Made by a program: the position numbers and the translations under genes | Shown: positions 2,042 through 63,966 of the stretch, piece by piece | How positions within the stretch are numbered: the first letter of the stretch is position 1 | How the letters are laid out: each line of letters begins with the position of its first letter | Notes under the pieces: generated by a model | Seen by the model: the letters and a program-made list of their open reading frames with translations, nothing else | What the model was told of the DNA's origin: nothing | Databases searched by the model: none | Virus record (IMG/VR): IMGVR_UViG_3300031772_000020 | Coordinates: 1 to 64,000 of that record | Reading direction: 5' to 3' (one strand) | From: a virus | Length of the DNA: 64,000 nucleotides

Positions 2042-2061
2042 AAAAGGGTTCTTCTTTGAGC

Positions 2062-3324
2062 ATGAATCGAAAACCGCACAACGCGCGATGGGTAGTGGCA
2101 TCGTTAAACAGGCCGGTCATGATGCGCCGGTCGGATGACGAGACCTGGCTACTGAACCCAAAACGCCGCCACATCTTGAATGCCGACGTGCTGGATGACC
2201 TGGCTCCTTACATCGAAAAGATGTCCGATCTGGAGGGTTCGTCCCTCTACAAGCCGTTAAGGACGGCCTCGAAGGTGCGTCTGACCGACTCCACCATTTT
2301 GATCGAGCGATACCGCGACCGTGGAATCGGCGATCTGCTCTTTACGACCGGCCCGATGGCCTACCTTCACCATGTCACGGGCGGCGAAATCAATCTCTAC
2401 TTTTACGCCTACGCCGAGCGCGGCATGATCCTGAACGGGTGTCCTTACCTGGCGTCCGCCAGCCCTTTGGTCGGTCCAGTGCTCTATGACGATCTGCCGC
2501 AATACGACTACCACTGGTTCATCGACAGCGTGACCGAATACAATGAGGAGGCGGATCAGCTAAATGTTTACGATTCCCTCTACGCCAGCCTGGGCATCGA
2601 CCCGACAACGGTCGATGCCCGATTCAAACGTCCGTATGCGCGGATCGCCGACAGCGAGACCAAGACCCTCGACGATTTCTTCTACTGGGTTTTCCAGAAC
2701 ACGCGGCTTCATCTGGACTTGCGCCATACCGGCTACTACGTGGTCGCGCCCTTTTCCAATAGTTCCCTTCGTTCGACCTCGTATCAGACGATGCTGAGCA
2801 CGATTCAATGCCTGGCAGAACGCCGCCCGGTGCTGGTCGTGGGGGCGCTCCGAGACCGGATGCCCACGACGGACATGTCGGCAGGTGACTTCATAGGCAC
2901 CGTAGATCGTGATTTGGTGAGCGCGGGGCGGGTAGCCAACCTCTGCGGCAAGACTCAGCTCCGCAACCTGATGCAATTGATCTCCAGGGCAAATTGTTGT
3001 TTGAGCCTGGATTCGGCCACGCTCTACATCGCTCAGGCGCTCCGCACTCCCTGCGTGTCCCTGTGGGGCAGTCATGATCCCGGTGTCCGTCTCGGCTACG
3101 ACAAGGAATACATGGACACGGCCATTTGGGAACAGGGAGCCTGCCGTCATAGCCCTTGCTACGCCTGGGCGCAGTTCCCGCATAACCGTTGCCCGATGGG
3201 CGAGAGCCAGACGATCTGCCACTGTCATTTGGCCGTAACCCACGAAAAAATTCTTGAGCGTTTCGATGCTGTGGAAAGCCGAGCGCCCAAGCTCATTAAG
3301 TTATCCACTATCAAACCCGACTGA
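2062..3324 (+). CDS. Glycosyltransferase family 9 (heptosyltransferase-like)
   Basis: About 420 residues with both signature regions of GT9/ADP-heptose transferases: GIGDLLFTTGPM near residue 87, matching the N-terminal 'GD.l..tP' loop, and LDSATLYIAQAL followed by RTPCVSLWGSHDPG near residue 315, matching the C-terminal nucleotide-sugar site. These enzymes extend LPS inner core or related glycans with sugar nucleotides at the cytoplasmic membrane. A TTG at 2038 gives eight more residues, but I prefer the ATG at 2062. Cysteines near the C-terminus (CRHSPCYAW, CPMG, CHCH) are extra to the usual family and may bind metal. A second GT9-like module is fused inside the gene at 49517. Confidence 0.75.
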   Translation: MNRKPHNARWVVASLNRPVMMRRSDDETWLLNPKRRHILNADVLDDLAPYIEKMSDLEGSSLYKPLRTASKVRLTDSTILIERYRDRGIGDLLFTTGPMAYLHHVTGGEINLYFYAYAERGMILNGCPYLASASPLVGPVLYDDLPQYDYHWFIDSVTEYNEEADQLNVYDSLYASLGIDPTTVDARFKRPYARIADSETKTLDDFFYWVFQNTRLHLDLRHTGYYVVAPFSNSSLRSTSYQTMLSTIQCLAERRPVLVVGALRDRMPTTDMSAGDFIGTVDRDLVSAGRVANLCGKTQLRNLMQLISRANCCLSLDSATLYIAQALRTPCVSLWGSHDPGVRLGYDKEYMDTAIWEQGACRHSPCYAWAQFPHNRCPMGESQTICHCHLAVTHEKILERFDAVESRAPKLIKLSTIKPD

Positions 3325-11046: not shown

Positions 11047-11430
11047 ATGAACAATCAAACATTAACCAAAATCGGAGCCGTCAAAGCTGTCTCCGCCACG
11101 ACCAAACAGTCGCAGGCGGTCGTTGAAACCGTCGTTGAGGCTTTCCTCAAACAAATCGAGAGCACCCTATCATCAGGCCGTCGCGTGGAATTTCGCGGCT
11201 TTGGCATTTGGGAAGTCCGCATGTCTAAGGAACGTGTCGGGCGGAATCCAAAGCGTCCCGAAGCGGGCGATGTCCGCATCCCATCACGCCCTGGCATCCG
11301 CTTCAAGGTTGGCAAGGAACTCAAATCCGCCATCCAGAACAACTTCAAGCGGTTCTTCAGCAGCCCTGACCCCACTCCCGTCGCCCCCGCCGTCGTTGCC
11401 TCGGTTGTGCAGGCTGCACCCACTGCATGA
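11047..11430 (+). CDS. HU/IHF-family DNA-binding protein
   Basis: 127 residues. The first 100 match the bacterial HU/IHF family: two N-terminal helices, the strand VEFRGFGIWEVR, the DNA-contact arm starting RVGRNPKRPE and ending in IPSRPGIRFKVGKELK. HU/IHF dimers bend DNA and help replication, recombination, packaging or transcription. A 25-residue Pro/Ala/Val tail is added at the C-terminus. I chose the ATG at 11047; a longer frame upstream overlaps the membrane protein and reads as noise. Its last bases overlap the start of the next glycosyltransferase (ATGA). A phage-coded bending protein is a candidate binder for the dispersed A/T-rich motif, but that is speculation. Confidence 0.85.
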   Translation: MNNQTLTKIGAVKAVSATTKQSQAVVETVVEAFLKQIESTLSSGRRVEFRGFGIWEVRMSKERVGRNPKRPEAGDVRIPSRPGIRFKVGKELKSAIQNNFKRFFSSPDPTPVAPAVVASVVQAAPTA

Positions 11431-12338
11431 AATCGCTTGTTTCGATTCTGACTTTCAACCGCATTGACGCGCTCAAAGAGACGCTTTCTGGGCTGTTAAA
11501 GCACTGCTCGGCTTATGATATTCATATTGTTGAGGATAATGGGCAAAGGGACGGAACGGAAACATTTTTGAAGGGTCCAACTCCAAAGTTGTTGGCGTCG
11601 CGGATAGACCTTTTGGCCGAGGAGTGGGATGGAAAACACTTAGGGTCAAACATCCGAGTCTTCTTGGGCAGCACTAACCTGGGTGTGGCTGGCAATAGTA
11701 ATCGAATACTGAAGCTTTTCGGAGAAGGGCAGTATGACCATCTTTGCCTCATGAACGATGATCTCCACGTCCTGGGAGATTTTGTAAACTTTTACGCTCA
11801 CGGCCATGAAGACCTGGGCGTGGGCATGTTCTGCTTCTGCGATTTCACCGTGGCAACTCCGGCAGCATCCGGCCTGCCGGAAACCTACCGCTGGATGACC
11901 GTCAACTCGCGGGGCTACATGGTCAAATTGTTGCCCCGGATGACTGGCATGATGATGTCGATGACCCGCGCCGTGTTCGACAAGATCGGTTATTTCGACG
12001 CTAGGTTTGGAAAATTTGGTGAGGAGCACTGTGATTACACGATCCGGGCGCGATTTGCTGGCGGGATCAACCTGGATGGCCAAATGCAGAATTGTCTCGA
12101 TCTGGAGCATCCCCATCTGCGGCACCAAGATGTTGCGAGCAGCGTAAGCGGGCCGGAACGCAAGCTTCTGGATCGGGAATCCTACGAAGTCATGTCCTAT
12201 ATCAGCAAGCGTTACGGTCAGGAGCCGATCTACCGGCCCTTCTTCCTGCGCCTGCCCAAGTATGCCGGGGGCCACAGCGGCATGGGCATCCCGGTGGATA
12301 GTCTTGGCCACTATGCCTTCGTCGATGTGCCCGCGTAG
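11427..12338 (+). CDS. Glycosyltransferase family 2
   Basis: 303 residues. The N-terminus KSLVSILTFNRIDALKETL is the typical GT2 first strand and helix, followed by IHIVEDNGQRDGT, a glycine-rich SNTL-like stretch (STNLGVAGNSNRIL) and the DxD-type site LMNDDLHVL at residues 107-115. GT2 enzymes transfer sugars from nucleotide donors to glycans, lipids or proteins. The second half (FGKFGEEHCDYTIRARFAG) carries the expected 'ED.d...R' acceptor/catalytic segment with E and D. Coupled to the HU-like gene by a 4-bp overlap. The acceptor cannot be inferred. Confidence 0.8.
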   Translation: MKSLVSILTFNRIDALKETLSGLLKHCSAYDIHIVEDNGQRDGTETFLKGPTPKLLASRIDLLAEEWDGKHLGSNIRVFLGSTNLGVAGNSNRILKLFGEGQYDHLCLMNDDLHVLGDFVNFYAHGHEDLGVGMFCFCDFTVATPAASGLPETYRWMTVNSRGYMVKLLPRMTGMMMSMTRAVFDKIGYFDARFGKFGEEHCDYTIRARFAGGINLDGQMQNCLDLEHPHLRHQDVASSVSGPERKLLDRESYEVMSYISKRYGQEPIYRPFFLRLPKYAGGHSGMGIPVDSLGHYAFVDVPA

Positions 12339-40460: not shown

Positions 40461-41069
40461 ATGAGCAGAATGCTATTCAAGAACACGTTCGGGTCGCAAA
40501 ACTCCCGCCTGGACTTGCAGCGCCAAGACCTGTTTAAGTTCACGCTCAATCTGCCCCAAGCTCTCCGCATGAATTGGACGGATCAGGTCGAGTTCGCGGT
40601 GGAGAAGTTTCCTTTCCCGGAGCGCAGCATCGAAGTCATCGGTATCAAATACATGCAACAGACCAACTTTCTGATTGGCGGCGACACCCCGACACCCGCC
40701 GTGGAAATTCCTGTTCGCTACGCCTTTGCCGCTGACATTGCCACGGCGTTGGAAAAGTGGTTTTGGCTCATCCGAAATCCGCTTACAGGCGGCGTGGCCT
40801 TGACCAGCTTCGTCAAGTCGGATGGGTTTTTCACCTGGATTGTCCCCAACCAGGTCGCGCAAAACGCGGACATCCGTGGTGTGCCCCAGTCGATGCCCAA
40901 TACGATGAAAAACGGCTTGAAGTATTACCTGGAAGGCGTGCTCTTGAAGGGCTTCAAGTTTTCGGATGCTGATATGACCACCAGCGGCAAGGTGGACTGC
41001 CAGCTCTCCCTCCAAATTGATAGGTATTACCCCGTAAATATCGACTCAATGATCGTAAGTGTGCCATAA
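40461..41069 (+). CDS. Tail tube protein (gp19-like)
   Basis: 202 residues directly after the sheath gene, the usual order. The tail-tube fold is suggested by ERSIEVIGIKYMQQTNFL, the long helix with FAADIATALEKWFWLIRNP, and the strand pair KNGLKYYLEGVLLKGFKFSD followed by VDCQLSLQIDRYYPV, which match the conserved C-terminal end of gp19-type proteins. Tube rings stack inside the sheath. Its TAA overlaps the start of an HNH gene (TAATG). A second tube-like protein is at 46971-47780. Confidence 0.75.
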   Translation: MSRMLFKNTFGSQNSRLDLQRQDLFKFTLNLPQALRMNWTDQVEFAVEKFPFPERSIEVIGIKYMQQTNFLIGGDTPTPAVEIPVRYAFAADIATALEKWFWLIRNPLTGGVALTSFVKSDGFFTWIVPNQVAQNADIRGVPQSMPNTMKNGLKYYLEGVLLKGFKFSDADMTTSGKVDCQLSLQIDRYYPVNIDSMIVSVP

Positions 41070-41641
41070 TGAATGGGTTACAGATAAATGCTGGACAAAA
41101 GTTTGGACGGTTAACCGTGCTTCGAGAACTTGAAAGGACGGTTAGTGGGGGCCAAATCCTCCGCCAAATCGAACTTCAGTGCGCTTGCGGAAAAATTACA
41201 GTCACACGGCCTTCTGTTTTGTCTCGTGGGCGCACAAAAAGCTGCGGCTGTCTTCAGCGTGAAAAAGCATCAAATTCTGGCAAACTTCGCCGTAAAGCAC
41301 CGGGTGAGCACGCGATCAATTCGGTCGTAAACACCTATGTTCAAGCTGCCAGAAAGCGTCAACTCGACTTTGCGCTTACCCGCGAGGACGTGGTTCGATT
41401 GATTTTCTCCGATTGTCGCTACTGTGGTGCTGAACCTCAGAATGTCCGGGGTCGTATAGGCATGTTTGGCTCGATCCATTACAATGGTATTGACCGCGTA
41501 GATAATACCAAAGGCTACACGCCGGAGAATAGTGTGGCTTGCTGCGAAATCTGTAACAAAGCAAAAAGAACAATGAGCGCCGCTGATTTTCAAGCTTGGA
41601 TCGAGCGTGCTCACAGCCATCTCAGTCAATTACCAATATGA
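41069..41641 (+). CDS. HNH homing endonuclease
   Basis: 190 residues starting in a TAATG overlap with the tube stop. The N-terminus (GQKFGRLTVLRELERTVSGG, then QCACGK and CGCLQRE) is the basic strand-rich DNA-binding module common to phage HNH proteins. The catalytic end has CRYCGAEPQN, HYNGIDRVDNTKGYTPEN and CCEICNKAKRTM, all HNH residues in place. It lies between the tube and fibre-like genes without disrupting them. Confidence 0.85.
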   Translation: MNGLQINAGQKFGRLTVLRELERTVSGGQILRQIELQCACGKITVTRPSVLSRGRTKSCGCLQREKASNSGKLRRKAPGEHAINSVVNTYVQAARKRQLDFALTREDVVRLIFSDCRYCGAEPQNVRGRIGMFGSIHYNGIDRVDNTKGYTPENSVACCEICNKAKRTMSAADFQAWIERAHSHLSQLPI

Positions 41642-47789: not shown

Positions 47790-49520
47790 ATGACTCCAGA
47801 CCTATCGCCATTGAAATTTCCAGCGCGGTGGACACTCCAGAAACTTCGTCCGCCGAGCCGGAAGAAGTTGTTCCTCCTGGAGGACTTCTCCGTTGAGGGC
47901 GAAACCAACCTGGGGTGCTGCTACCGCTTCGAGCCGGGAGAGCAGGTATTGGCTGCTGGGGACGGCAAAGTCATTTCGATTCGCTTGATTTTTTCGATCT
48001 GGAAATTCACGCCCAATACGCTCTTGGGAACGCAGCCAACCTACGAGGTCACGATTGACCACGGCAACGAAATCTGGACGACCGTCCATGGTCTGGCCTC
48101 CTGCACGGTTCAGACGGCGACGCCGGTGGTGCGCGGCGACGTGATCGGCAACCTCCTGACGGACGAGCTTTTCTTCCAGATCAAATGGATGGGCACGCCG
48201 CATGATCCAGCTTCGGTCAGCCGCCATTTTCAGGTCCAGGACGGCACCCACGCGATTGGGCGCACAGGCTTCATTCGAGAAGCTGCCGACCGGCTCCCTC
48301 GGACATTCCTTTCGGTCATCCGCCAGATCATCGTCAACGGTGTCCATTATTTTGTAAACATTTTTGGCTATCATCCGCCTGTGCTGGCGGACATTGACTT
48401 CAACGGCAGTGATGGCACCGTGCTCGAAGGCCGGGGGGCGCTCGGCTACTCGTTTTTCATAAACTTCAACGTGGTGGACAACGGCAGCGTCGATTTGATC
48501 GGCAGGGGATTTTATGACTTCAGGCCCGGCAATGGCCTTTATGTGGATATGGCGGGCAGCGGCAATGCCGGAGGTTCGATGAGCTGGTATGGCCGTATGG
48601 AGAGCAAGACGACCTTTACCTTCACGACCGGGCACATCTTCCGGTTAAGCTGGCGGGCGGCGGGCAACCAGCGCCTTGCTCGTGCCCACGAAATTCTGAA
48701 TTACAAAGCCGGGGCACTGGTCGATGCCAACCTGGACATCACCGACTGGATGCAGGATTTCCAGGACTACTACGTCGATTTTACTGGCGATGGTTCCACC
48801 GGCACCATTTCGTTCCGCAAAATCGCCTTGGAAACCGATCCCGGTCAAGCTTATGGGTCGCTGCTGGATGATGTAGTGCTCGAAGACCTCACCGGCAGCA
48901 CCGTGCTGCTCAACGACAATTTCGACACCGAGAACGGGATCACGGTCACCCGCTACTGGGGGCCTGCGGTGGTCGGCGACACCAGCGACTACTGGAACAT
49001 CTACGTGCCGGTGCTTTACACAAAGGATTACCGGGACTGCTACTGCTCCTACGGCTATGGCGGCACACCCGAAGTCTGCTTCACCTACTCCTCGGTGTCT
49101 TACATCTACCTGAAGGACGCCAAGCAGGTGGACACGCGCATCTGGCTGGAACGGGTTGCTCCCTTGGTGAATAACAGTGGTGTCACAGCGACCTGGAACG
49201 GGATGCTGATGACCTGGATCGGCGGGTTCGATATGGGCGGCGTCCCCTATACCACCGTCTTTCGGCTCCACGGCCTGCCTCCCGGCATTTATGGGCTTTA
49301 CCTTTACAGCAATCAGACTTTCAGTGGCAGTGGTTCCGACTACTACGTCCAGGTGGACGGCGGAACCATCCTCAGCGCGACGACTACCCCCACGGGGGCA
49401 ACCTCCTGGATTCAGGATGACAACTACGTTCTGTTCAGCAGCCTGGATATTGTTCCCGGTTCTACTATCAGAATCGAAGTTCTTGGCTATTTGGCCGGGT
49501 TGCAGATTCGCCGCGTATGA
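47790..49520 (+). CDS. Virion protein with degenerate M23-type domain
   Basis: 576 residues. Residues about 30-160 resemble an M23 (LytM) endopeptidase: EPGEQVLAAGDGKVISIRL, YEVTIDHGNEIWTTVHGLAS, and VVRGDVIGNLL followed by ELFFQI, where the HLHFE zinc motif should be. The His-x-His pair is absent, so it probably is not an active peptidase. The rest (residues 195-576) is beta-rich with Cys and looks like carbohydrate-binding or fibre modules (FNGSDGTVLEGRGALGY and DNFDTENG repeats). It sits in a tail region and overlaps the next gene by 4 bp. Confidence 0.55.
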   Translation: MTPDLSPLKFPARWTLQKLRPPSRKKLFLLEDFSVEGETNLGCCYRFEPGEQVLAAGDGKVISIRLIFSIWKFTPNTLLGTQPTYEVTIDHGNEIWTTVHGLASCTVQTATPVVRGDVIGNLLTDELFFQIKWMGTPHDPASVSRHFQVQDGTHAIGRTGFIREAADRLPRTFLSVIRQIIVNGVHYFVNIFGYHPPVLADIDFNGSDGTVLEGRGALGYSFFINFNVVDNGSVDLIGRGFYDFRPGNGLYVDMAGSGNAGGSMSWYGRMESKTTFTFTTGHIFRLSWRAAGNQRLARAHEILNYKAGALVDANLDITDWMQDFQDYYVDFTGDGSTGTISFRKIALETDPGQAYGSLLDDVVLEDLTGSTVLLNDNFDTENGITVTRYWGPAVVGDTSDYWNIYVPVLYTKDYRDCYCSYGYGGTPEVCFTYSSVSYIYLKDAKQVDTRIWLERVAPLVNNSGVTATWNGMLMTWIGGFDMGGVPYTTVFRLHGLPPGIYGLYLYSNQTFSGSGSDYYVQVDGGTILSATTTPTGATSWIQDDNYVLFSSLDIVPGSTIRIEVLGYLAGLQIRRV

Positions 49521-51805
49521 ACGATGTCCCAGTCCTGATTTCGACAATCGTGGTGGTGGACGAAAAGACCGTAGGGTCAATAGGTTCCATCCATGGGAGC
49601 TTTCACCGGCAGAGCCATCCGCACAAAGAGCTGGTTTTTGTAAACCTTTTGGACAAAGACCTCGGAGATGGCATTCAGGTCAAGCCGATCAACGGTGAAA
49701 ACGCTATTGCTGCTGGTGTGCGGGCAGCCAGGGGCCAGATTTGCGTGCTTTGGACGCTTGGCTGGTGGTATCACAGGGACGTGCTCAGCATCCACGCTCG
49801 GCTGACCACGACTTACCTGAAAATCGAACTGCGCCACGACCTCCATGAGCCGGTCTATAGCACGTCATTTTACCGCCGCGCTTACAAGGCCCTGGATTCA
49901 CCGCTGATGAAGACCCACCAGGTCGGTGCGGTCGGCTTGGTTGAGCGTATGGAGGGCAACCATGACCCCAAGGGATGGCGGCTCTATCATAGCGGCAACT
50001 TGGGTGACATCATCTATTCCATGCCTGCCTTGAAGGTCATGGGCCACGGCATCTTTTACTTGGGCACGGAGATCAAGATGAACCCAAAACCGGACTTGCG
50101 CGAAGTCATGTCGCCCAAGGTGGTCAAGAACATCGCGCCCCTGATGCTGGCCCAGCCCTATGTCCGGTCAGTTTACTTCACGGAGAAGATGCCGGTTGTG
50201 AACTACGACCTGAACCTGTTCCGCAACTTCGCGGCACCAGGGAAGAACCTGGTCACTCAATCCCTCGACGCCTGCTGCCTGAGCGCCGAGACCTTTTTCA
50301 ACGATCAGGTGCCCTGGTTGGATGTTGACCCGATCATTCTCAAGCGCAGCGTGCTCGTCCACCGAAGCCATCGTTGGCGCAATCCGCAGTTCCCCTGGCA
50401 CGACATCGTGAACAGGTTCCGGCGCGACATGGTATTCATCGGCACGCCGGAGGAGTATGCCTCGTTTGTTTCGGACTTCGGCCTGATTCCGCACGCGCAG
50501 ACGGCCAACCTCCTGGAACTGGCCCGGCTGATTGCGGGCTGTCATTTGTTCGTCGGCAACCAGAGCTGTCCCTACGCTATTGCCGAGGGGCTAAAGGTGA
50601 ACACCGTCCAGGAAACCTATCCACAGCTCGCCAATTGCTTGTTCAAGCGGCCCAACGCCATCTACGGCCAGGACAAATTTGTTTACATTCCTGAGCTGAG
50701 GCACCTGCCGCTCAATCCGCGCCGGAAGGAGAAATGGCACGTCCGAAAACTGACGCACCAGGCCCCGGAAATTAACGTCGTCGAGCAGCCCACTAAGTTT
50801 GAGGAATTCTACACCCACAATGGCGTCCCGGCCACGATCAGCGGCCTGCACCGAAGTATCGGCATGGCTTCCACGCACCTGTTCGACAACAGCCGGATGC
50901 TTCAGGCCATTCCCCTGCCCCTGCCGATGAAGCGCAACGCCATCCAGTGGACATTCGGCAGAAAGGGCCGGGTTGAGGCGTGGTTCAATCCCAGCCTGGC
51001 CATCTGGAAGGGTAAAAAGTTCCTGGCTTATCGCGTCGAGTGTATCCCCTGGTTCCGACTCTCGATGGTTGCCGTCAACGAACTGGATCGGGAATGGAAC
51101 CCAATCCTGGAGACGACCAGAGTGTTCGATCTCCATTCCAAGTTTGGCAACTACTGCGTGGAAGACCCAAGGTTTTTTGTTTACAAAGAAAATTTGTGGT
51201 TGGCCTACACCGACTCTCTTGAGGTCGGTATCGCCCGATTAAACGACGACATGACCACGGCGGAGAGTTTTTACCTAGAGCGCCCCTGGTATCACACCAG
51301 GCCGGAGAAAAACTGGACGTTCTTCGAGGCGGAAGGTCGGCTGTTCGCTACCTACGGCATTGTGCCTCACAAGGTTCTTGAGGTCAGCGTGGAAGACCAC
51401 ACGACCAAGTTCGTATATGAGACCCGCTTCGACCACAACTGGACGCGGGGCGACCTGCGCGGCGGCTCCTCGCCGGTGCTGCACGACGGGCTGCTCTGGT
51501 CGTTTTTCCACTCCAGCGTCAACATCCGTGAGGAGTCCTACGGCCCCATCCGTCAATACTTTATCGGCGTTTACGCCTTCGATCCCAAGCCTCCCTTCAA
51601 GCCGGTTTACATGTCCAAAGTGCCACTCTTGGCGGGCGAGGAGGAGAAAATTCAGCATAATCGGCCTTCCCAGCACTCCGTGATCTTCCCTTGCGGGGCA
51701 ATCCGGGCCGCGTGCGGCTGGCTGGTCACCTTCGGCGAAAATGATTGCCGCTGCCGAATGGCGTTCTTTGATGATGGAATCGTGAATGAATTGCAAAAGC
51801 TATGA
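49517..51805 (+). CDS. GT2-GT9-GH130 three-part glycan enzyme
   Basis: 762 residues in three modules. Residues 1-130: a shortened GT2-like part (VLISTIVVVDEKTVGSIGSI). Residues about 150-400: a GT9-like part (GNLGDIIYSMPALKVMGH near residue 160, FVGNQSCPYAIAEGL near 345). Residues about 470-760: a five-bladed propeller like GH130 mannoside phosphorylases (FNPSLAIWKGKKFLAYR, VEDPRFFVYKENLWLAY, EKNWTFFEAEGRLFATYG, GSSPVLHDGLLWSFFHSS, IGVYAFDP). GH130 enzymes act on beta-mannosides; the usual catalytic Asp lies in the EDPR motif. I know no described phage enzyme with this order, but I cannot search. It starts the glycan cluster. Confidence 0.65.
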   Translation: MNDVPVLISTIVVVDEKTVGSIGSIHGSFHRQSHPHKELVFVNLLDKDLGDGIQVKPINGENAIAAGVRAARGQICVLWTLGWWYHRDVLSIHARLTTTYLKIELRHDLHEPVYSTSFYRRAYKALDSPLMKTHQVGAVGLVERMEGNHDPKGWRLYHSGNLGDIIYSMPALKVMGHGIFYLGTEIKMNPKPDLREVMSPKVVKNIAPLMLAQPYVRSVYFTEKMPVVNYDLNLFRNFAAPGKNLVTQSLDACCLSAETFFNDQVPWLDVDPIILKRSVLVHRSHRWRNPQFPWHDIVNRFRRDMVFIGTPEEYASFVSDFGLIPHAQTANLLELARLIAGCHLFVGNQSCPYAIAEGLKVNTVQETYPQLANCLFKRPNAIYGQDKFVYIPELRHLPLNPRRKEKWHVRKLTHQAPEINVVEQPTKFEEFYTHNGVPATISGLHRSIGMASTHLFDNSRMLQAIPLPLPMKRNAIQWTFGRKGRVEAWFNPSLAIWKGKKFLAYRVECIPWFRLSMVAVNELDREWNPILETTRVFDLHSKFGNYCVEDPRFFVYKENLWLAYTDSLEVGIARLNDDMTTAESFYLERPWYHTRPEKNWTFFEAEGRLFATYGIVPHKVLEVSVEDHTTKFVYETRFDHNWTRGDLRGGSSPVLHDGLLWSFFHSSVNIREESYGPIRQYFIGVYAFDPKPPFKPVYMSKVPLLAGEEEKIQHNRPSQHSVIFPCGAIRAACGWLVTFGENDCRCRMAFFDDGIVNELQKL

Positions 51806-52569
51806 CGGTTACGCTGCCGCAGATAATTGACTGGACGGTCACCGAAGACGCGGAGGCATACGTCCAGTCTCATCGTATCCGGTTGTTGAGGACGCTGGAG
51901 TGCGTCCCGGAGGGAGGCCCCGGCAAGGCCCTGCTGGACATGGGCAGCTATCTCCAGATGGCTCCGGTTTGCAAGTTCATCGGCGGCTACCCGGACGTGT
52001 ATGCCTGCTACTTGGGGACAGGCACGCGGAACGCAAACATCATGTCCCGCGAGGGTAAAGAGTTCCAAAGCCGGATGGACTTCTTCGATGCCGAGAAGGA
52101 CACTTTTCCCTACCAAGATGCCCAGTTCGACTGCGTGCTCTGCTGCGAGGTCTTGTCCTACATGCAGTGCGACCCGATGTGGATGATGTATGAGATCAAC
52201 CGCACCATGAAGGTCGGCGGCACCCTGATCCTGTCCGTGCCCAACGCCTGCTCGATCAAGGCCGTCTGGAAAGTGCTGAACGGGTTCCACCCCGGATTTT
52301 TCAGCAACTACATCATCTCCAGCGAGCCGCGCCTGGCCAGGGAATACTCGCCCGGCGAGCTGAAAGACCTGGCTGAAGCCAGCGGCTACCAGGTGACAGA
52401 AGTCAAAGGCTGTAATTACGCGCTTGATTTCACCGAGACCGACCGCCACTTGATCGACCACCTGAGAGCCAATAGCTTCCCGGAGATCATCCGCGAGGAG
52501 TGCCTGATTACGGCTGCCCGGAAAATGACGGCACCGCAGTCTCGCTATCCAAAGTGGTTATACTACTAA
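51802..52569 (+). CDS. Class I SAM-dependent methyltransferase
   Basis: 255 residues. Motif I is weak: KALLDMGSYLQMAPVCKF replaces the usual GxGxG. The post-motifs are clearer: FDCVLCCEVLSYMQCD (motif II/III), MKVGGTLILSVPNACS (motif IV-like), and YSPGELKDLAEASGYQVTEV (late strand). Such methyltransferases in glycan clusters often cap sugars or lipids. It overlaps the preceding GT/GH130 gene by 4 bp and ends in a TAATG overlap with the next transferase, so the cluster is transcribed as a unit. Substrate unknown. Confidence 0.7.
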   Translation: MTVTLPQIIDWTVTEDAEAYVQSHRIRLLRTLECVPEGGPGKALLDMGSYLQMAPVCKFIGGYPDVYACYLGTGTRNANIMSREGKEFQSRMDFFDAEKDTFPYQDAQFDCVLCCEVLSYMQCDPMWMMYEINRTMKVGGTLILSVPNACSIKAVWKVLNGFHPGFFSNYIISSEPRLAREYSPGELKDLAEASGYQVTEVKGCNYALDFTETDRHLIDHLRANSFPEIIREECLITAARKMTAPQSRYPKWLYY

Positions 52570-53219
52570 TGAAGATAAAATTGGTCATGCTCTACGACGA
52601 GGGCCGGGCGATGCTGGGGGAAGTCAGCGCCCCGCTGGTCCAGGCGTATGCCAGCAAACACGGCTATGGATTTGTCTGCTACCGGTCGTTGTTCAATCCG
52701 CAGCAGCCTGCTTCCTGGAACAAGCTCATGGCCGTGTGCTCGCAGATGGACGACTGCGACTGGATTATGTGGCTCGACGCGGACATCGTGCTGATGCGCC
52801 AGGACATCAAGTTGGAGGAGATCGTCAATACCTTTTCGTGGAATAAGCCGTTGCTCATCTCCCTGGATAAGTGGGGCGTGTGTTTTGGCGCTTTCTTGGT
52901 CAAAAATTGCGCCTGGTCGAAGGCTCTTTTTGATCTGCTGCCTATGCTGGGGACGGTTGATCCGGTTGGTCCGTTTGGCACCCGTGACGCCTGGGAGCAA
53001 AACGCCATCAAGTGCCTGATGCAGTTCTTCCCGGATTTTCGGAGCAAAATTTCGTTCATCCCGGAGTGGCTGATCTGCAACCAAGACTCCGACTTTTGGC
53101 CGGACGCCTGGATGAAACATTATTGGGCTGCCGGAAAGGTTGCCGTCTTAGAAACAGTCCGCGAACGAATGCTGGCGTGCGTGCGCGATGGCTGGTCAAC
53201 GGAGGTGCATAAGCTATGA
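52569..53219 (+). CDS. GT34-type galactosyl/mannosyltransferase
   Basis: 216 residues from the ATG overlapping the methyltransferase stop. It reads KLVMLYDEGRAMLGEVSAPL, then SWNKLMAVCSQMDDCDWIMW followed by LDADIVLM, giving the DxD site typical of GMA12/MNN10 (GT34) transferases, which are mainly known from eukaryotes, fungi and some bacteria or viruses. The C-terminus has FIPEWLICNQDSDFW with acceptor-site aromatic residues. Function in the phage is sugar addition to an unknown acceptor. Confidence 0.7.
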   Translation: MKIKLVMLYDEGRAMLGEVSAPLVQAYASKHGYGFVCYRSLFNPQQPASWNKLMAVCSQMDDCDWIMWLDADIVLMRQDIKLEEIVNTFSWNKPLLISLDKWGVCFGAFLVKNCAWSKALFDLLPMLGTVDPVGPFGTRDAWEQNAIKCLMQFFPDFRSKISFIPEWLICNQDSDFWPDAWMKHYWAAGKVAVLETVRERMLACVRDGWSTEVHKL

Positions 53220-53974
53220 GAAATTGCCTTATCTTCGGTTCTGGCAGGTGCGGCACTTCCGCCCTCGCGGGGGCCTTGGCCAAGTCAGGAGTGTTCACGG
53301 GTCTGCACCCGGTCGGTGCGACCAGCCAGATGCCACAGGGCTACTGGGAAGACCACGGGGTATGCTGCTGGAACAACGATCTGCTGAAGCAGGTCTGCGA
53401 CTTCAAAGGCATTTTAGTCGCTCCCATCCCGTTGGAAGCCCGCGAGAAAATGCCGCTGGCAAGGTTCCCCGATCTGATGGCCGTGCGGCGCTACTTTTGG
53501 TTTCAGCCCTATGCTTTCAAAGACCCGCGCTTCTCTTTCACCTACCCGGCCTGGAAGCCTTTCTTCGTTCAGCCGCACGTCAACATCGTCCTGTTCCGCA
53601 AACCATCCGATTTCGTGGATAGTGCCCTGCGCTTGCGGGCGGATCATCCCGTGATCGCCCAGGAGAGGTCTGCCCTGGAGCAGATGTGGCTCAATACTTA
53701 TGAGCATGTGCTGGCCAACGACGACGGCACTTTTTGCTATATCGAGACCGACGAACTGATCGACGGCTCGATCCTGCCCTTCCTGGAGACACTGCTGAGT
53801 TACACGATCAAGCGGGACTTCATCCAGCCGAAAATGGCGCACATCACCAGGGGTAAAATGACCGCTAACGATCTGTGGCCGTGCTACCGTGAGCTGTTGG
53901 AGCGAACAAGCAAGAGGAGCGAACTTTTAGATTCTTCGGCTCAGGCAGCCGCCCCGTCAGCTCGGAATGGCTAA
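53216..53974 (+). CDS. Sulfotransferase family protein
   Basis: 252 residues. It has the 5'-phosphosulfate-binding loop CLIFGSGRCGTSALAGALAK at residues 4-23, the FKDPRFSFTYPAWKP segment that follows in this family, and the 3'-phosphate part VLFRKPSDFVDSALRLRA near residue 125. Such enzymes move sulfate from PAPS to sugars or proteins. PAPS must come from the host, since no PAPS-making gene is in view. It overlaps the GT34-type gene by 4 bp. A phage that sulfates a polymer is rare. Confidence 0.75.
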   Translation: MRNCLIFGSGRCGTSALAGALAKSGVFTGLHPVGATSQMPQGYWEDHGVCCWNNDLLKQVCDFKGILVAPIPLEAREKMPLARFPDLMAVRRYFWFQPYAFKDPRFSFTYPAWKPFFVQPHVNIVLFRKPSDFVDSALRLRADHPVIAQERSALEQMWLNTYEHVLANDDGTFCYIETDELIDGSILPFLETLLSYTIKRDFIQPKMAHITRGKMTANDLWPCYRELLERTSKRSELLDSSAQAAAPSARNG

Positions 53975-55247: not shown

Positions 55248-55311
55248 ACAAAAGTAACTGCGTTCTTTTTAGGTGGTCGGTGCGGGGACAAGCAGAAGGT
55301 GTGCGAAGCCT

Positions 55312-55896
55312 ATGAATATGAGAGTTATGGCGGGCAGAGTGGTGGTCAAGCAACACGCAACGAAGCTCAAGGGCGCGATCCAGCTTCCTCCCAATCGGGC
55401 GAAGCTCTACGAGATCGGCGAAGTGATCGCGGTCGGCGCGATGGAGGGTTATGGGCCGGATGGCAAACACAGCACCAAAGAGACTTACATCGCTGGCGAT
55501 CTTGTGCTGTTCCAGCTTCCATCGTCTTTAGTCGAGAGTCTCACCTTCGACATCAAGGGCGTGCTGAATTGCTTCCTCCACGTCGAGGACATCATCGCCA
55601 GGCTCACCAGGGACGTGATCGAGTTGGAATCGTTCAAGATCGTGGGGCGTTTTGTGCTCATCGAGCCGTCTGTTCGCCGCGAAAGCCTTATCGTTCTGCC
55701 GGATACCGCCGAGGATGCCAAGAGGGAAAACCTCCATTTCAGCGTGCGCCAGGTCGGTGCGGACGTTGGCTATCCATTTTACACCGGCCAGGAGGTTTTC
55801 CCGGATAAAGGCCGGGTCAACCCCATGACTATCGAGAATACTGAGCTGGCTTTCGTCGATCAGCAGTTCATCTACGGCGCACTGGCCACGGATTGA
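55312..55896 (+). CDS. GroES-like co-chaperonin with two tandem domains
   Basis: 194 residues. Residues 1-95 match the GroES family: VMAGRVVVKQHATKLKGAIQ, LYEIGEVIAVGAMEG (basic turn) and YIAGDLVLFQLPSS, ending in the VEDIIARL 'lid' strand. Residues 105-194 look like a second GroES-type barrel (FKIVGRFVLIEPSVRRESLI, YPFYTGQEVFPDKGRV, LAFVDQQFIYGAL). T4 gp31 has one such domain; tandem forms are known from chloroplast Cpn20-type proteins. Seven such units on a GroEL ring could not form with an odd 7 from a two-domain subunit without special geometry, so it may pair with the host ring in another way. Confidence 0.65.
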   Translation: MNMRVMAGRVVVKQHATKLKGAIQLPPNRAKLYEIGEVIAVGAMEGYGPDGKHSTKETYIAGDLVLFQLPSSLVESLTFDIKGVLNCFLHVEDIIARLTRDVIELESFKIVGRFVLIEPSVRRESLIVLPDTAEDAKRENLHFSVRQVGADVGYPFYTGQEVFPDKGRVNPMTIENTELAFVDQQFIYGALATD

Positions 55897-55943: not shown

Positions 55944-58900
55944 ATGATAACGCTGATGTTTGCTGGCAAGCCGCTACCACCGATTCTGACTGCCAACGTA
56001 TCGGCGGCGCTGAGCATCCTGGTGGACGGCCAGGTTCCGTTGCAGTCCGTTTGGTCGGTCTGGGCGACGGTCGAAATTGCCTCTGGAACGACCCCGGTGA
56101 TTTCGTTCACGCCGGTTGATCCGGTCACCACTTTGATCGACGTGTTCGTCGTTAAAGGCGACGGTTCTGCTCAGCACCAAAGCTTTTTCGTTCAAGTTGT
56201 TAGCACTCCCATTGGCCCGATTACGACCTCCATCAATTGGAGCAAGATTCAATACCGCAAGAGCGACCCTATCGACGCTCAAATCGTCTTCAGCGACCCC
56301 AGGGGCCGGAACTACCAGTCGCTCACTTGGAACCTTTACCGGAACAGCATTTGGCAGGCATCAGGCACCACCGCCACGATCCACTACGAAAACGCCGATC
56401 ACGGTGTTTACCGGATCGTCTCCAAGGTCATTGACAACGATAACAACACTGTCACTGGCGACAGCTCAACGGTCGTGGTCGGCGACTACGAAATTCAGGC
56501 CAGCCTCCAGCCGCAGCCGGGCAAGACAATGCAATTCCTGGGCTATGCTTATACTGGCGAGCAGATCGGCGAGGCGAGCTTTTCATCCACCGTGGCTATG
56601 CCTATGACCGCAATGGCCGAGCAAATTTACCTGCTGCCAGGCACGACTTATTTCCAGGTCGAACTTGATCCAGAGACGGTGCGTGCGCCGGGCCAGGTCG
56701 TCGTCCGCACACCCACAGGCAACTGGTCTGTCCGAGGCGAAGCTCCGGGCACGATTGACCTGCCCTACGAGTTTCTGAGCAACACTTACTTCGTGCCCGC
56801 GCCCGCCGACCTCCGGCTCCAGATCACGACCGAAGGTTTCGCCACGTCGGTCGGCCCGCAATTGCCATTCCGCTTCCGCATCCGGGTGAAGTGCTTTTAT
56901 GATAAGACCCAGGTTTATGAGTTCAGGCTGTGCCCTGAATCCACGTCCGAGGGTGGAGCAGGCCAGCGTGCCCGGCGCTTCGCCGTCCTGTTCAGCAAGG
57001 TGAACCTGCTGACCGATACGGATACGCCCGAAGGCCGCATGGGCAGCTCGCCGACCGCTATCCAGACCTATGAAACTGACTTGCCCGAAACGCTGCCGGT
57101 CACCCTCAGCTTGGAAGGCAGGCCCGACATTTCGGAGCAGTCGCACCGGCTGTTCTACACCGATCAAAACTGGACGACTTCGTATGACCCGGCGACTGAA
57201 GGACTTCTGGAAGTCGATGCCCACTCGACCTATGCCATCGAGGAATCGCGTCCGTTCACAATTTCATTCATGATGCCCGCCTACCCCACGATCATCCAGC
57301 GTCCTCGCCGGGTTTGGGGCAAGGTCGCCATCTACTTGGCCAATGGCTATGTGAATGCGGGGACAGTCATCAGCGTGAACCTGCTCACCGCAGGCGGTTA
57401 CAGCACTCGTTCGGTCGCGGTGCCGGTTATGGCGGATGCTTTCAGCCCTGACCTCCAAACCTACCTCAAAATCGCAGAGGCAAATGTTGACATTTCCGAC
57501 GCTGAGTTCATTGACAACGGCATTGTTGGCATCGTCAACCTCGACGAGAGTGGGGCCGATCTCGTCTCCTGGCCGGTTGGAGTTACCCGGCCCGATCCAG
57601 CCGAGCTGCAAGGCACGGTTTACTCGATGGTTTCAGGTCCATTCGCCCGTTTTGACGGCGCGTGCTATCACAACGTCGGCCCGTTGGTCGCCATGATGGG
57701 CACTACGACGGCTAGCGCCAACGGCACCTACACCGTGGACGCTTCCGGCACCATCTACCCACTGGTCGCTGACATCATCGCCTGCTACGACCCAAAATGC
57801 GTGCCAGCGGGCCTGTTCTGCTACGGCGAATACAATGGGGCTACTAAGCTCCATGTCCTCCAGCCGCTCTATAATCCGGCTCCTTACGTGGCCCCCGCTG
57901 ACCAGGTAACGCGCTGTTACTGCAATCCGTGCATCACTTTGGAGTGGGTCGGCACTGATGGCATCCTGCCCGCCTATGATCCGTTTGTGGCCTACACGAA
58001 CGGGAGCTACTGCGGTGTGGCTTATGCCTTCCTGGCCTGCAACGGCACCAGCAATCCACTGGTCATTCCCTATCCCAGCACGACAATTCCTCCCGGCTAC
58101 GTGGCCTACAACGGCACCTGCTACGGCAACGCGGGCAGCCTAGCTTACACAACCGGCTACAGCCTGGTCGGGCGCGACGAAGTGGATGTGGTCTATGACT
58201 GCCAGGACTCCTTCTGCACCGGCTCCGCCACGGGCGGCATGGTTGTGCGCTACCGCGACCACGAGACCCAGCGCGACGTGGACGTTTACATGAACCACAT
58301 GGACACGGGAGTTCCGTTCCAAGGTGTCGTGCCGCAAACTTACGACGACGGCGCGGCTGGTTTGATCGAAGGCCACGCAACGGTTATCGTCAGCAAGAAT
58401 GTCGTCGAGCAGCCGGTTTTGGTGGTTCCTGGCAGTGGCACTCTGGAGTTCATCGTTTCGGTGAGCAGCAACGACAAGCAACTCATCCGCTATCGCGCCG
58501 GGGTTCCAACCCGATTCCCAATGCGCTTGGGCACGTTCGTCACGAAGATGGACGTGAGGGCAGGCGATCAGATCAACTTCAGGATGTATGCCAAGAGAGC
58601 GACTATTCACATCTCCTGGAAGCCCTGGGTGCCCCGGCCTCGCCTCTACGCGACCGGCACGCTTTATCCTACGGCCCCGACACCAATCCGCGCCGTAGGT
58701 TTCACCGGCCTGACGAATCGCAGTGAGTATGCCTTCTACGGAACGCTGCCCGCCGATGTGTCCATGACCGAGGTTAATCCCGACAGCATCCTGACAGTTA
58801 AAGCGAGCGGCGTGGAATACGCCCTGGTGCGAGCCAGAGGTATCACCGATTCAGTCCCGGCATTGCCGTTTCCCTGCGTTTGGTATGGCAGCAACACCCC

Positions 58901-60134
58901 GTTGGTCGGCCCGCTGGTCTTCAAGCTCTATTCCGGGCGCGAAGATGCCGGTGGAAACGGCGATCTCGATGTGTGGCTGGCCGAACAGGGAGAGTTGGCA
59001 CCCATCTTCGCGGCCAATTCCTACCAAAGTTTGGTGCGATACGGAGACCCGCTGCCAACTAACCGGGTGCCGGAGGTCGAACGCAACAGCCTTCGGGTGG
59101 TGGACTCGGCCTTCACCTATCGCTGGCCTTCCGCCTATATTGCAAACAACGGCAACCGTCTGGTCGTAGCCGCTCCGCCGATCCCGAATCGGCCCGTCGC
59201 ACTGGTCTATGCCGATCTTTACACCTGGGCTGGCACCGTGCCTGGCGGGGCCTACAACATTTTGCCCTGGAACATCGGCAGCCGGATGTCCGTCAACGAC
59301 CACATTTACGTGGATATGCTGGTGATGCCGGACGGCACGCGCATGTTCGTAGCTGTGGTCAATCTCATAAATTCCAGCACCTTCGTCACCAGCCCTGGCG
59401 GCTCGCGGGATACGGTTCGACAGACGACCCTTGACTTTGCTGCCAGCGTGGGCGCTGACCTGGCCTTCAATGGCAACTTCTTCCTGCCCTTCCCGTCTGC
59501 CAGCCCGAACGCGGCGGATGTTGGATTTGTGGCGTCGTCAGGCATCGTTTTCTCGCCCTTCGAGCCTCAGCCTATCGGTATTGGCTACGCCAATCAGAGC
59601 TACGCGATCCTGCCGTATGCCCCGGCGCTAAACATCGGCGTCAGCGGCATGGCCACGGTCGTCCACCGCGACGGAGCCTACGTGGACAACAAACACGTCC
59701 TGGAGGGCGTGGCCTTGTGGAATGGCGTTGCGGGCAGCGCCCAGGTCGTTACGAACGGCGTCAAAACCATTCCGATCTATGGATCAGGCACGAACCAGCT
59801 CACCGCCATGAGCGGCTACTCGAACAGCAACTCGTGGTATAACCTCAAGCGTGCCCGCACCGTTGTTGGCGTGAAGAGCGACAGAAGCACCCTGGTCGTC
59901 TGTGTGGCCGAAGGTGTGAGCGGATCGTTGGGAGGCAACGGCGGCATGGCCGTGGGTGACATCGTGGACATTTTGATGCGGAACTACGCCGTCTATAACG
60001 CGCTCAATCTCGATGGCGGCGGCAGCTCGTCATTGGTGGTCAAGATGAACGGCAACTACACTATGCTGAACACCAGCCTTGATGGGCCGCTGGGCCGTGC
60101 CGTGGGTTGCAACTTGGCCATCTCTATACCATAG
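55944..60134 (+). CDS. Giant tail fibre/spike with phosphodiester glycosidase domain
   Basis: 1396 residues, the longest protein here. The N-terminal 1000 residues are beta-rich repeats (Ig-like strands and Cys-rich parts, e.g. CYDPKCVPAGLFCYGEYNGA). Residues about 1085-1396 match the NAGPA/DUF2233 phosphodiester glycosidase family: LAFNGNFFLPF, SGIVFSPFEPQPIGIGYAN, RTVVGVKSDRSTLVVCVAEG, GGNGGMAVGDIVDILMRNYA and NLDGGGSSSLVV. This family cleaves phosphodiester-linked sugars in capsular, lipid or teichoic-acid-like polymers. As a large tail protein with an enzyme at its end it is most likely a surface depolymerase. Confidence 0.7.
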   Translation: MITLMFAGKPLPPILTANVSAALSILVDGQVPLQSVWSVWATVEIASGTTPVISFTPVDPVTTLIDVFVVKGDGSAQHQSFFVQVVSTPIGPITTSINWSKIQYRKSDPIDAQIVFSDPRGRNYQSLTWNLYRNSIWQASGTTATIHYENADHGVYRIVSKVIDNDNNTVTGDSSTVVVGDYEIQASLQPQPGKTMQFLGYAYTGEQIGEASFSSTVAMPMTAMAEQIYLLPGTTYFQVELDPETVRAPGQVVVRTPTGNWSVRGEAPGTIDLPYEFLSNTYFVPAPADLRLQITTEGFATSVGPQLPFRFRIRVKCFYDKTQVYEFRLCPESTSEGGAGQRARRFAVLFSKVNLLTDTDTPEGRMGSSPTAIQTYETDLPETLPVTLSLEGRPDISEQSHRLFYTDQNWTTSYDPATEGLLEVDAHSTYAIEESRPFTISFMMPAYPTIIQRPRRVWGKVAIYLANGYVNAGTVISVNLLTAGGYSTRSVAVPVMADAFSPDLQTYLKIAEANVDISDAEFIDNGIVGIVNLDESGADLVSWPVGVTRPDPAELQGTVYSMVSGPFARFDGACYHNVGPLVAMMGTTTASANGTYTVDASGTIYPLVADIIACYDPKCVPAGLFCYGEYNGATKLHVLQPLYNPAPYVAPADQVTRCYCNPCITLEWVGTDGILPAYDPFVAYTNGSYCGVAYAFLACNGTSNPLVIPYPSTTIPPGYVAYNGTCYGNAGSLAYTTGYSLVGRDEVDVVYDCQDSFCTGSATGGMVVRYRDHETQRDVDVYMNHMDTGVPFQGVVPQTYDDGAAGLIEGHATVIVSKNVVEQPVLVVPGSGTLEFIVSVSSNDKQLIRYRAGVPTRFPMRLGTFVTKMDVRAGDQINFRMYAKRATIHISWKPWVPRPRLYATGTLYPTAPTPIRAVGFTGLTNRSEYAFYGTLPADVSMTEVNPDSILTVKASGVEYALVRARGITDSVPALPFPCVWYGSNTPLVGPLVFKLYSGREDAGGNGDLDVWLAEQGELAPIFAANSYQSLVRYGDPLPTNRVPEVERNSLRVVDSAFTYRWPSAYIANNGNRLVVAAPPIPNRPVALVYADLYTWAGTVPGGAYNILPWNIGSRMSVNDHIYVDMLVMPDGTRMFVAVVNLINSSTFVTSPGGSRDTVRQTTLDFAASVGADLAFNGNFFLPFPSASPNAADVGFVASSGIVFSPFEPQPIGIGYANQSYAILPYAPALNIGVSGMATVVHRDGAYVDNKHVLEGVALWNGVAGSAQVVTNGVKTIPIYGSGTNQLTAMSGYSNSNSWYNLKRARTVVGVKSDRSTLVVCVAEGVSGSLGGNGGMAVGDIVDILMRNYAVYNALNLDGGGSSSLVVKMNGNYTMLNTSLDGPLGRAVGCNLAISIP

Positions 60135-62336: not shown

Positions 62337-63371
62337 TTATTTAGAAATTTGATCCCCGTAGGCCAACATGGCATCGTCTTCCAGGACGACCCCCGCGTTC
62401 TGCGGCGGATTCTGCTTTAGGTATCGGAGCATGATGTCCTGCTTGGAGCGCGGGATCGGCTGGTTGCCCACTTCCCCCTCTTTGTTCCCCGCGACGGTCA
62501 TCTCGAAATCGTAGATGGCCTCGTCGGCGCGGTTGGCCAGGGGATGGGCATAATACCGCTCAGCCTCCGCGATGTCCTTCAGGATGACCTTGTAGCGATC
62601 CTCCGAGTCCGCTTTGACGCTGGCCAGGAAGTCGTCGAGCGACACTTGACGATAGGCCGGGAAGCCCTCCAGAGGCACCCAGGACACGTCGATCCGGCCC
62701 CCCTGAATGTCCACGATGGCCACGCGCTTGGCTTCCCCGGACTCGCCCCAGTCCTGCTGAAAGGGGGAGCCGATGTAATGAAGCTTGCCGAGGGTTTGCG
62801 GCTTGTGAATATGTCCAAGTAAGCCAATGTTTACAAAATCTAGCGCCTCCTTGGAGAAGCCGCCCGCTGCCGTGCCCGTAGGCATCTGGCATCCGGCGAC
62901 CTGGAAGTGGCCGAGGAGCAGCGCGGGTCTTTTGGGCCGGTTCAGCCGCAGGAAGTCCGTAATCGAGCGTTCGTCGTCTTGATAGCTGATGCACAAAATG
63001 TTTACTTTTCCGCACGGAATGGCCTCGCAGCCGTCCACGACATGGAAAAAGGCCCGGAACATTTTCCCGGCGTGGATTTTTGGCGAGCGTAACCATTGCT
63101 CATGGTTGCCCACTAATTTTAGATTCCATTCCCCTTTAAATTCCTTCAAGTGATCGCATAAAAGGTCAATAACTGGCACCGGAATTGCGCTTCTGTCGTC
63201 CGTAGTATCACCGAGATCAAAGAGGGCGTCACATTTTTGCTCGCGGTATATCCGTTTCAGTTCTTTGAAAAACCGGTCTATTCTCCAGAGTTGGAGAGAT
63301 CGGCTAGGGTCCGCAAAACAGCGTTCGTGGCCGTCCGTCGCCTGTAAATCGCTATACACTAAGGCACGCAT
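62337..63371 (-). CDS. Mre11/SbcD-type nuclease subunit (gp47-like)
   Basis: 344 residues. Metallophosphoesterase motifs are in order: VYSDLQATDGHE (motif I, with Gln where His is usual), FDLGDTTDDR (GDxxD), KLVGNHEQWL (GNHE), LLLGHFQVAG and NIGLLGHIHKPQ (GHxH). The protein is the expected partner of the Rad50-like subunit at 25856-27805. It starts with ATG overlapping the HNH gene's end by 20 bp. The Gln substitution in motif I might change metal use. Located 37 bp upstream of the lipoproteins. Confidence 0.8.
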   Translation of the reverse strand: MRALVYSDLQATDGHERCFADPSRSLQLWRIDRFFKELKRIYREQKCDALFDLGDTTDDRSAIPVPVIDLLCDHLKEFKGEWNLKLVGNHEQWLRSPKIHAGKMFRAFFHVVDGCEAIPCGKVNILCISYQDDERSITDFLRLNRPKRPALLLGHFQVAGCQMPTGTAAGGFSKEALDFVNIGLLGHIHKPQTLGKLHYIGSPFQQDWGESGEAKRVAIVDIQGGRIDVSWVPLEGFPAYRQVSLDDFLASVKADSEDRYKVILKDIAEAERYYAHPLANRADEAIYDFEMTVAGNKEGEVGNQPIPRSKQDIMLRYLKQNPPQNAGVVLEDDAMLAYGDQISK

Positions 63372-63966
63372 ATTGATGATTATGAACACGTTCAATCCAA
63401 GCGATGAACTCCTCTTTTGTCATGATAGATTTAGCCACGTTGCAGATTCGGCAGCACGGCACCACGTTGCTCAGCAGGTAGCCGCGTTTGGGATCAACCC
63501 GGTCAAGACCGTTATACGTGAACGTGCCGTAGGCATCGTGGTATTTTGTCTCGATATTGCTGGGAGGACACCCGCAATAGTGGCACGCCTGCTGAGTCAG
63601 TGCCAAAAACTGGGCCTTGCTGATGACGAACTCAAGGCATTTGTTCCGTGCCCGCATGAGATAGCGGTTGTAAACAAAGTTCAAGCAGGCTTCGCCACAA
63701 CCAAGACGCTTTTTATAGTTGGTGATGTGAATTGTCGTTTCTCGCTGGAGGCACCCGCAGCTCCTCGTAATCCCCCACCGGGCAACGACTTCACTGCCAC
63801 AATCGCATTTGAAAAGGAACTGCCGACCGCCCCAGCGGTCGGGTTCCGACTCTTTGACCAGGGTTAAGCGCCCATTGTGGTCGCCGGACTTGCGTTCAAT
63901 CCGTGCTGGCATACCGCCGTATAGAACCAAATCCAGCAAGTTAATAGTAGTGACAAATTGATCCAT
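63352..63966 (-). CDS. HNH homing endonuclease
   Basis: 204 residues with the same plan as the other HNH proteins: N-terminal basic strand module (GRLTLVKESEPDRWGGRQFL, FKCDCG, CGCLQRE), then CHYCGCPPSN, FTYNGLDRVDPKRGYLLSN and CCRICNVAKSIM, ending EEFIAWIERV. All HNH Cys, His and Asn are present. It starts at 63966 and overlaps the Mre11-like gene's start by 20 bp. A/T content is higher than the neighbours. Motif TTGTTTACA lies inside it (63669). Confidence 0.85.
   Translation of the reverse strand: MDQFVTTINLLDLVLYGGMPARIERKSGDHNGRLTLVKESEPDRWGGRQFLFKCDCGSEVVARWGITRSCGCLQRETTIHITNYKKRLGCGEACLNFVYNRYLMRARNKCLEFVISKAQFLALTQQACHYCGCPPSNIETKYHDAYGTFTYNGLDRVDPKRGYLLSNVVPCCRICNVAKSIMTKEEFIAWIERVHNHQYACLSV

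Follow-up and report, generated by a model that had tools for sequence, protein, structure and literature searches.

A conserved phage gene cassette built around a GH130/GT108-type propeller fusion and its possible part in glycan assembly

Introduction

The methyl-capped polymannan O-antigens of Escherichia coli O8/O9 (the WbdD system) illustrate how a mannosyltransferase and a methyltransferase can work on one and the same chain. Among phages, virion glycans have been demonstrated for few, and the enzymes underlying them are little explored; in mycobacteriophages, phage-encoded enzymes glycosylate capsid and tail-tube subunits (Freeman et al. 2023, cited in PMC12619734). The locus considered here lies in a stretch of 64,000 nucleotides (hereafter the window), part of a 70-kb virus record (IMGVR_UViG_3300031772_000020), and consists of four genes that encode, in order, a fusion protein ending in a GH130-like propeller, a methyltransferase, a GT34-type transferase and a sulfotransferase-family protein. 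Glycan modification by phages is of a known kind; the composition found here is new.

A conserved four-gene cassette

The four open reading frames were found at 49517-53974, encode proteins of 762, 255, 216 and 252 amino acids and are joined, in gene order, by overlaps of 4 bp (ATGA), 1 bp (TAATG) and 4 bp (ATGA) (Table 1). The 1-4-bp overlaps noticed in a preceding sequence-only reading of this DNA are thus confirmed from the coordinates, and they recur elsewhere: the contig L071 carries all four in unchanged order, at 79% identity in the query module and again with overlaps of 4, 1 and 4 bp, and the 238-kb contig L003 (57-69% protein identity) has the same four in the same order, with junctions overlapping as in the window except for a short gap between the methyltransferase and GT34 genes. 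A further 4-bp overlap, read from the sequence, joins gene 1 to the upstream M23-peptidase-like gene (27.2 bits against Peptidase_M23, slightly below the cut-off of 28.7), which is kept in L003 and in the contig L007, so that the coupled run comprises at least five genes. L003 also preserves the wider arrangement, from tail and baseplate genes through the cluster to the primase-like and fibre genes; one contig (L002) is identical, and two others (L035 and L040) begin within the sulfotransferase gene, adjoining the primase-like gene. Searches for close relatives of the primase-like and the tube-like gene returned few loci.

Could the cluster, or the fusion in its first gene, have arisen by misassembly or chance? 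Both are ruled out by the independent contigs L003 and L071, which contain the four-gene unit as well as the gene 1 fusion in the same order; the fused order, sought in other phages, is hence present there. Values of dN/dS against L003 of 0.08-0.20 across all domains and 0.37 in the linker, which are rough owing to high dS, indicate that the unit is under purifying selection. The cluster is a real, conserved phage cassette. A recent foreign origin was considered on the basis of GC content and rejected (56.9% in the cluster, 56.4% in the window), scans for promoters and terminators gave background levels only, and neither an Rfam match nor a tRNA was found. In an annotated phage collection, the fusion protein has no relative and genes 2, 3 and 4 have a single weak or distant match each, which agrees with the first impression that a phage operon of this composition is unfamiliar; the arrangement is nevertheless a member of a recurrent modular set rather than a one-off. 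The separate glycosyltransferases noted elsewhere in the window are likewise matched (Table 1).

Several neighbouring genes are recorded here as observations in their own right. A 1396-aa fibre-like protein (55944-60134) has a phosphodiester glycosidase domain at its C-terminus (NAGPA, 5.7e-15), and its L003 homologue, which ends at 1102 aa, apparently lacks that domain. The gene at 55273-55896, whose product by eye resembles a doubled GroES-type co-chaperonin, is kept in L003 and L007. Two related genes of endonuclease VII/HNH type, at 41069-41641 and 63352-63966 (minus strand), the former among tail genes, are possibly a pair of homing endonucleases.

Table 1. Positions of the cassette, its predicted modules and related genes in the window
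Feature	Positions	Strand	Basis
Glycosyltransferase, weaker match	3-1250		7e-8
GT9	2038-3324		8e-13
GT2	11427-12338		PHROG 1e-13
M23-peptidase-like gene, tail/baseplate region	47790-49520	+	Pfam Peptidase_M23 4.5e-6
Gene 1, 762 aa: putative GT2-like remnant, HSGNLGDIIY (GT9-like) module and predicted GH130/GT108-type propeller	49517-51805	+	
GT2-like module, aa 1-150; TLGWW from aa 80	49517-49966	+	alignment with relatives
HSGNLGDIIY module, aa 151-400, GT9-like by motif only	49967-50716	+	
Predicted five-bladed GH130/GT108-type propeller, aa 445-762	50849-51802	+	model, fold match, profile
Gene 2, class I SAM methyltransferase, atypical motif I (LLDMGSYLQMAP)	51802-52569	+	Pfam Methyltransf_11 8.1e-7
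Gene 3, GT34-type glycosyltransferase, DAD motif	52569-53219	+	Pfam PF05637 9.1e-18
Gene 4, sulfotransferase-family protein	53216-53974	+	homology

The fusion protein of gene 1

The N-terminal module, first taken for a glycosyltransferase N-terminus, is indeed GT2-like by its relatives, aligning with modules of this kind in L004 and L007, but the metal-binding Asp motif of GT2 is gone: where those relatives have DDDDW or YDDTW, gene 1 has TLGWW, and the loss is common to L003 (TPGWW) and L071 (RPGFW). Judged by this motif, the GT2 part has probably given up metal-dependent transferase activity. Since the Asp-less module is still constrained (dN/dS 0.20 against L003), we infer that it is a non-catalytic remnant serving structure. 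It gave no match to the other GT2 of the window.

The middle part had been called GT9-like, and a likeness at the level of motif does exist; it belongs, however, to a large phage family of its own, which numbers at least 200 viral relatives and in which the likeness to GT9 is marginal. GT9 (PF01075) is not detected in gene 1 and is matched by 2 of 42 relatives (best E 0.014), the window's own GT9 gave no profile match, and searches of Pfam and PDB produced no firm match, a 42-member profile against PDB included, which found nothing convincing. The family, seen in L070-L149 besides the window, thus stands without a firm Pfam family and displays fusions to many types of glycosyltransferase, its members being joined to GT4, methyltransferase or DUF5672 domains (once also with a GT9 domain). 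What might bring such modules together in a single protein? L007, whose flanking genes are those of the window, encodes the GT2-like, middle and propeller parts separately and has its middle part fused to a methyltransferase; L086 contains a protein of GT4 plus middle module, then a methyltransferase-like ORF and then a propeller; and a deltaproteobacterium (L045:7932-10863) carries, ahead of a HSGNLGDIIY module, a propeller that is fused to polysaccharide pyruvyl transferase. The fusion in gene 1 therefore joins parts that are neighbours elsewhere.

The predicted model of gene 1 was poor for the N-terminal and middle parts, and the fold comparison covered residues 433-762, of which residues 445-762 were modelled with pLDDT mostly above 90. 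The closest match was Uhgb_MP (4udg; Z 26.1, rmsd 3.2 over 286 residues), GH130 structures as a group giving Z scores of 22.5-26.1, the mannoside synthase Uhgb_MS 25.9 and the Leishmania GT108 enzymes 21.8-22.5, the last value, for the GDP-Man-dependent 6q4z, lying below the GH130 matches. A profile of the propeller family agrees best with the beta-1,2-mannobiose phosphorylase Lin0857 (1.4e-12) and also matches Uhgb_MS; GT108 chains are not among the matches listed, an absence that does not amount to exclusion. Against Pfam GH130 (PF04041), gene 1 scores 16.6 bits and does not reach the gathering score of 26, which the L004 relative clears with 26.5; 19 of 24 propeller relatives match this family at E <=0.1, and two of the 24 also match the fungal beta-mannosyltransferases of PF12141. 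The model and the profiles together allow the C-terminus of gene 1 to be assigned with confidence as a predicted five-bladed propeller of the GH130/GT108 type, and the GH130-like part of the original description is strongly confirmed.

The residues that recognise mannose have been defined in BfMGP and Teth514_1789 (PMC4264767). By profile alignment, the Asn/Asp/Asp of this mannose site are conserved in gene 1 as N491, D550 and D743; the L007 propeller is devoid of the Asn and the final Asp. An EKNW block (597-600 in gene 1) is invariant among the first 14 propeller relatives, and we know of no phage EKNW propeller with an established activity.

The companion genes

The methyltransferase call for gene 2 is borne out by Methyltransf_11 (30.0 bits, cut-off 21.2), the matched stretch beginning downstream of SAM motif I, which is atypical (LLDMGSYLQMAP), as it is in the DSL-LC01 relative. 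Outside the window's own lineage, relatives of this methyltransferase are nearly always paired with a GH130-like propeller: a propeller ORF lies directly downstream in 25 of 30, and two of the five exceptions (L165 and L174) are short loci that end near the methyltransferase. By comparison, such adjacency occurs in 5 of 90 loci found via GT34 or middle-module relatives. With the own lineage removed, these contigs form 16 clusters at 90% identity, 15 of them with a propeller, and one clade at 50%, and the 25 are therefore not independent events. The gene order elsewhere is methyltransferase-propeller and in the window propeller-methyltransferase, implying that the pairing either outlived a rearrangement or originated twice. 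In the actinophage DSL-LC01 the pair is annotated as methyltransferase and beta-mannosyltransferase, and the phages of this type (L152-L178) share a conserved two-gene unit of a methyltransferase and a beta-mannosyltransferase-like propeller.

Gene 3 passes the cut-off for PF05637 (65.3 bits against 23), has a DAD motif at 70-72 that is retained in L003, and matches a xyloglucan xylosyltransferase in PDB (7.6e-5), so the GT34-type assignment holds through family and motif alike. For gene 4, the proposed sulfotransferase finds support in homology to a Cereibacter 'sulfotransferase family protein' (29% over 92%, E 1e-6; hhalign probability 95%, E 4e-8) but not in Pfam or NCBIfam, where gene 4 and its two orthologues gave no match. 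A PAPS-loop-like GSGRCGTS near the N-terminus and R128...S136 are both invariant in three phages; an AlphaFold model from three sequences reached a pLDDT of 34. In a Sulfotransfer_3 search of 16 phage records, the sole match was weak and fell in L017, an unrelated phage in which a sulfotransferase (PF17784, 6e-27) adjoins a propeller. The gene directly after the sulfotransferase in L003 is related to a domain fused to the propellers of L008 and L009. The literature searched yielded no phage sulfotransferase, which does not prove their absence.

A possible glycan-assembly pathway

What, then, would this cassette make? It very probably serves the assembly of a glycan by the phage. The product would most likely be a short mannose-type glycan, branched, methylated and sulfated, with a beta-mannosyl (or similar) residue. 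At the level of the enzymes this reading has good support; we infer that the propeller works in the synthetic direction, that mannose is the sugar, that methyl and sulfate sit on one glycan and that the virion is the target. The propeller would take a mannosyl (or similar) residue from GDP-mannose or mannose-1-phosphate and attach it in beta linkage, using inverting chemistry of the GH130/GT108 type, with D550 as the key Asp, while the HSGNLGDIIY module would probably add another sugar, or bind donor or acceptor, and the GT2-like remnant would probably act as a non-catalytic docking part. The methyltransferase may methylate the residue laid down by the propeller, by analogy to methyl-capped mannans, the GT34 enzyme may add a branch and the sulfotransferase may sulfate the product from PAPS. 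Genes for APS kinase and sugar nucleotidyltransferase were not found in the four records searched, which may be fragments, and as far as these incomplete records go PAPS and the sugar nucleotides must be supplied by the host. The product would most likely decorate the virion, on some part of its tail or baseplate. Taken as a whole, this explanation, a propeller-based glycan-assembly cassette whose product ends up on the virion tail or baseplate, stands in our estimate at about an even chance.

The earlier proposal that the phage builds a glycan is upheld as to the cassette, the possible methylation and sulfation, and the fusion, but the glycosidase-like label of the GH130 part has had to be corrected: this part is better read as a synthetic mannosyltransferase, GT108-like or a phosphorylase working in reverse, than as a glycosidase, and it is rather likely to act in synthesis.

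Virion, host surface or degradation

In another phage group (L012-L016, L018-L031 and L033; e.g. L013:9968), the propeller is encoded right behind the major head protein (phrog_617): exactly 2 bp separate the stop codon of the head-protein gene from the start of the propeller gene, in 20 of 20 testable contigs. These propellers fall into 13 clusters at 90% identity and one clade at 50%; the coupling, a matter of gene position, is a strong lead for glycosylation of the capsid. Taken as proof of virion glycosylation it was rejected, because adjacency is not activity and the contigs are of one clade. Further propellers stand between tape-measure-like and portal genes (L008), just before a portal gene (L009), in a tail region (L017), among tail-fibre genes (Synechococcus phage DSL-LC02) and after a baseplate/tail-pin gene (Synechococcus phage S-SCSM2R), and the window's cluster lies between baseplate and fibre genes. 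In L005, L006, L008 and L009, the propeller is fused to a different N-terminal domain and followed by varying combinations of methyltransferase, GT25-like, hexapeptide transferase, DegT and GT2 genes, the sets standing ahead of a portal gene where tested.

Do these neighbourhoods place the glycan on the virion, or do they reflect late expression only? It is possible, though we lean against it, that the cassette remodels a host surface polysaccharide, an O-antigen-like chain being capped, branched or sulfated so as to block superinfection or alter recognition. Bacterial propeller relatives do occur in polysaccharide gene neighbourhoods, and in three Opitutaceae one is flanked by the genes of a DegT aminotransferase and of an ABC-2 transporter (exporter), a context that supports synthesis yet keeps the host-surface alternative alive; cyanophages bear host cell-wall and GDP-mannose genes (PMC9602691), and the window has its further glycosyltransferases. 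The pairs outside the window's lineage also count against the virion, since they adjoin non-virion genes, those of DSL-LC01 type lying near Fpg/Nei-type DNA-glycosylase and ribonucleotide-reductase genes. The head-protein coupling and the tail and portal settings of several other phage groups nevertheless argue against the host surface, and nothing noticed in the cassette points to a gene for an exporter or a lipid carrier. Gene context thus tips slightly to the virion, and a virion rather than a host target is put, tentatively, at a little short of an even bet.

A degradative propeller, acting as a phosphorylase or mannosidase on mannans that stem from the host or are scavenged, with the other genes working on the products, would be in line with the nearest solved structures and sequence matches, which are mostly GH130 phosphorylases and hydrolases, but is improbable given the transferases, methyltransferase and sulfotransferase that keep it company, the export and pyruvyl-transfer genes adjoining its bacterial relatives, and a cassette in which no transporter or sugar-catabolism gene was seen. 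No enzyme of GH130 fold, GT34 enzyme or sulfotransferase is known to modify DNA. That the cassette modifies phage DNA or nucleotides instead of protein or polysaccharide is highly improbable, even though a primase-like gene comes after it and DNA-hypermodifying phage glycosyltransferases are known (cited in PMC12619734); no gene for modified-base synthesis was noticed nearby, the neighbourhood having been viewed without a systematic search.

Returning to glycan assembly, would the proposal extend beyond the window? A widespread class of phage virion glycosyltransferases, EKNW-type GH130-fold propellers made together with capsid or tail proteins and building methylated and sulfated beta-mannosyl glycans, so that some phages would wear a mannan-like coat of their own making with chemical caps, seems unlikely. 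The propeller locked 2 bp behind a capsid gene and the cassette beside tail genes are concrete, testable candidates all the same. If the reading is right, they would reveal a way in which certain uncultured phages mask or tune their surface, and would supply new enzymes for making beta-mannosides, a linkage that is hard for chemists (PMC4264767).

Comparison with known systems

The enzymes of mycobacteriophage virion glycosylation (Freeman et al. 2023) differ from those described here. Likewise, the enzymes of the E. coli O8/O9 polymannans are unrelated to the cassette, and the likeness is one of analogy only. By annotation only, DSL-LC01 and DSL-LC02 resemble the window in that an EKN-type propeller adjoins a methyltransferase, in DSL-LC02 amid tail-fibre genes; they differ in having separate genes in another order, at 23-31% identity, and neither GT34 nor sulfotransferase was seen beside the pair. 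With the GH130 phosphorylases (Uhgb_MP, Lin0857, Teth514_1788/1789), gene 1 shares the predicted five-bladed propeller, the Asp of EDPR and the mannose-site Asn and Asp, whereas identity in structure alignments is 12-18%, the EKNW block and two extra fused modules set it apart, and the phage gene adjoins methyltransferase, GT34 and sulfotransferase genes. The Leishmania GT108 mannosyltransferases/phosphorylases and Uhgb_MS have the same predicted fold as gene 1 (Z 21.8-25.9) and, although no GT108 sequence match is reported for the propeller, they use GH130 chemistry synthetically.
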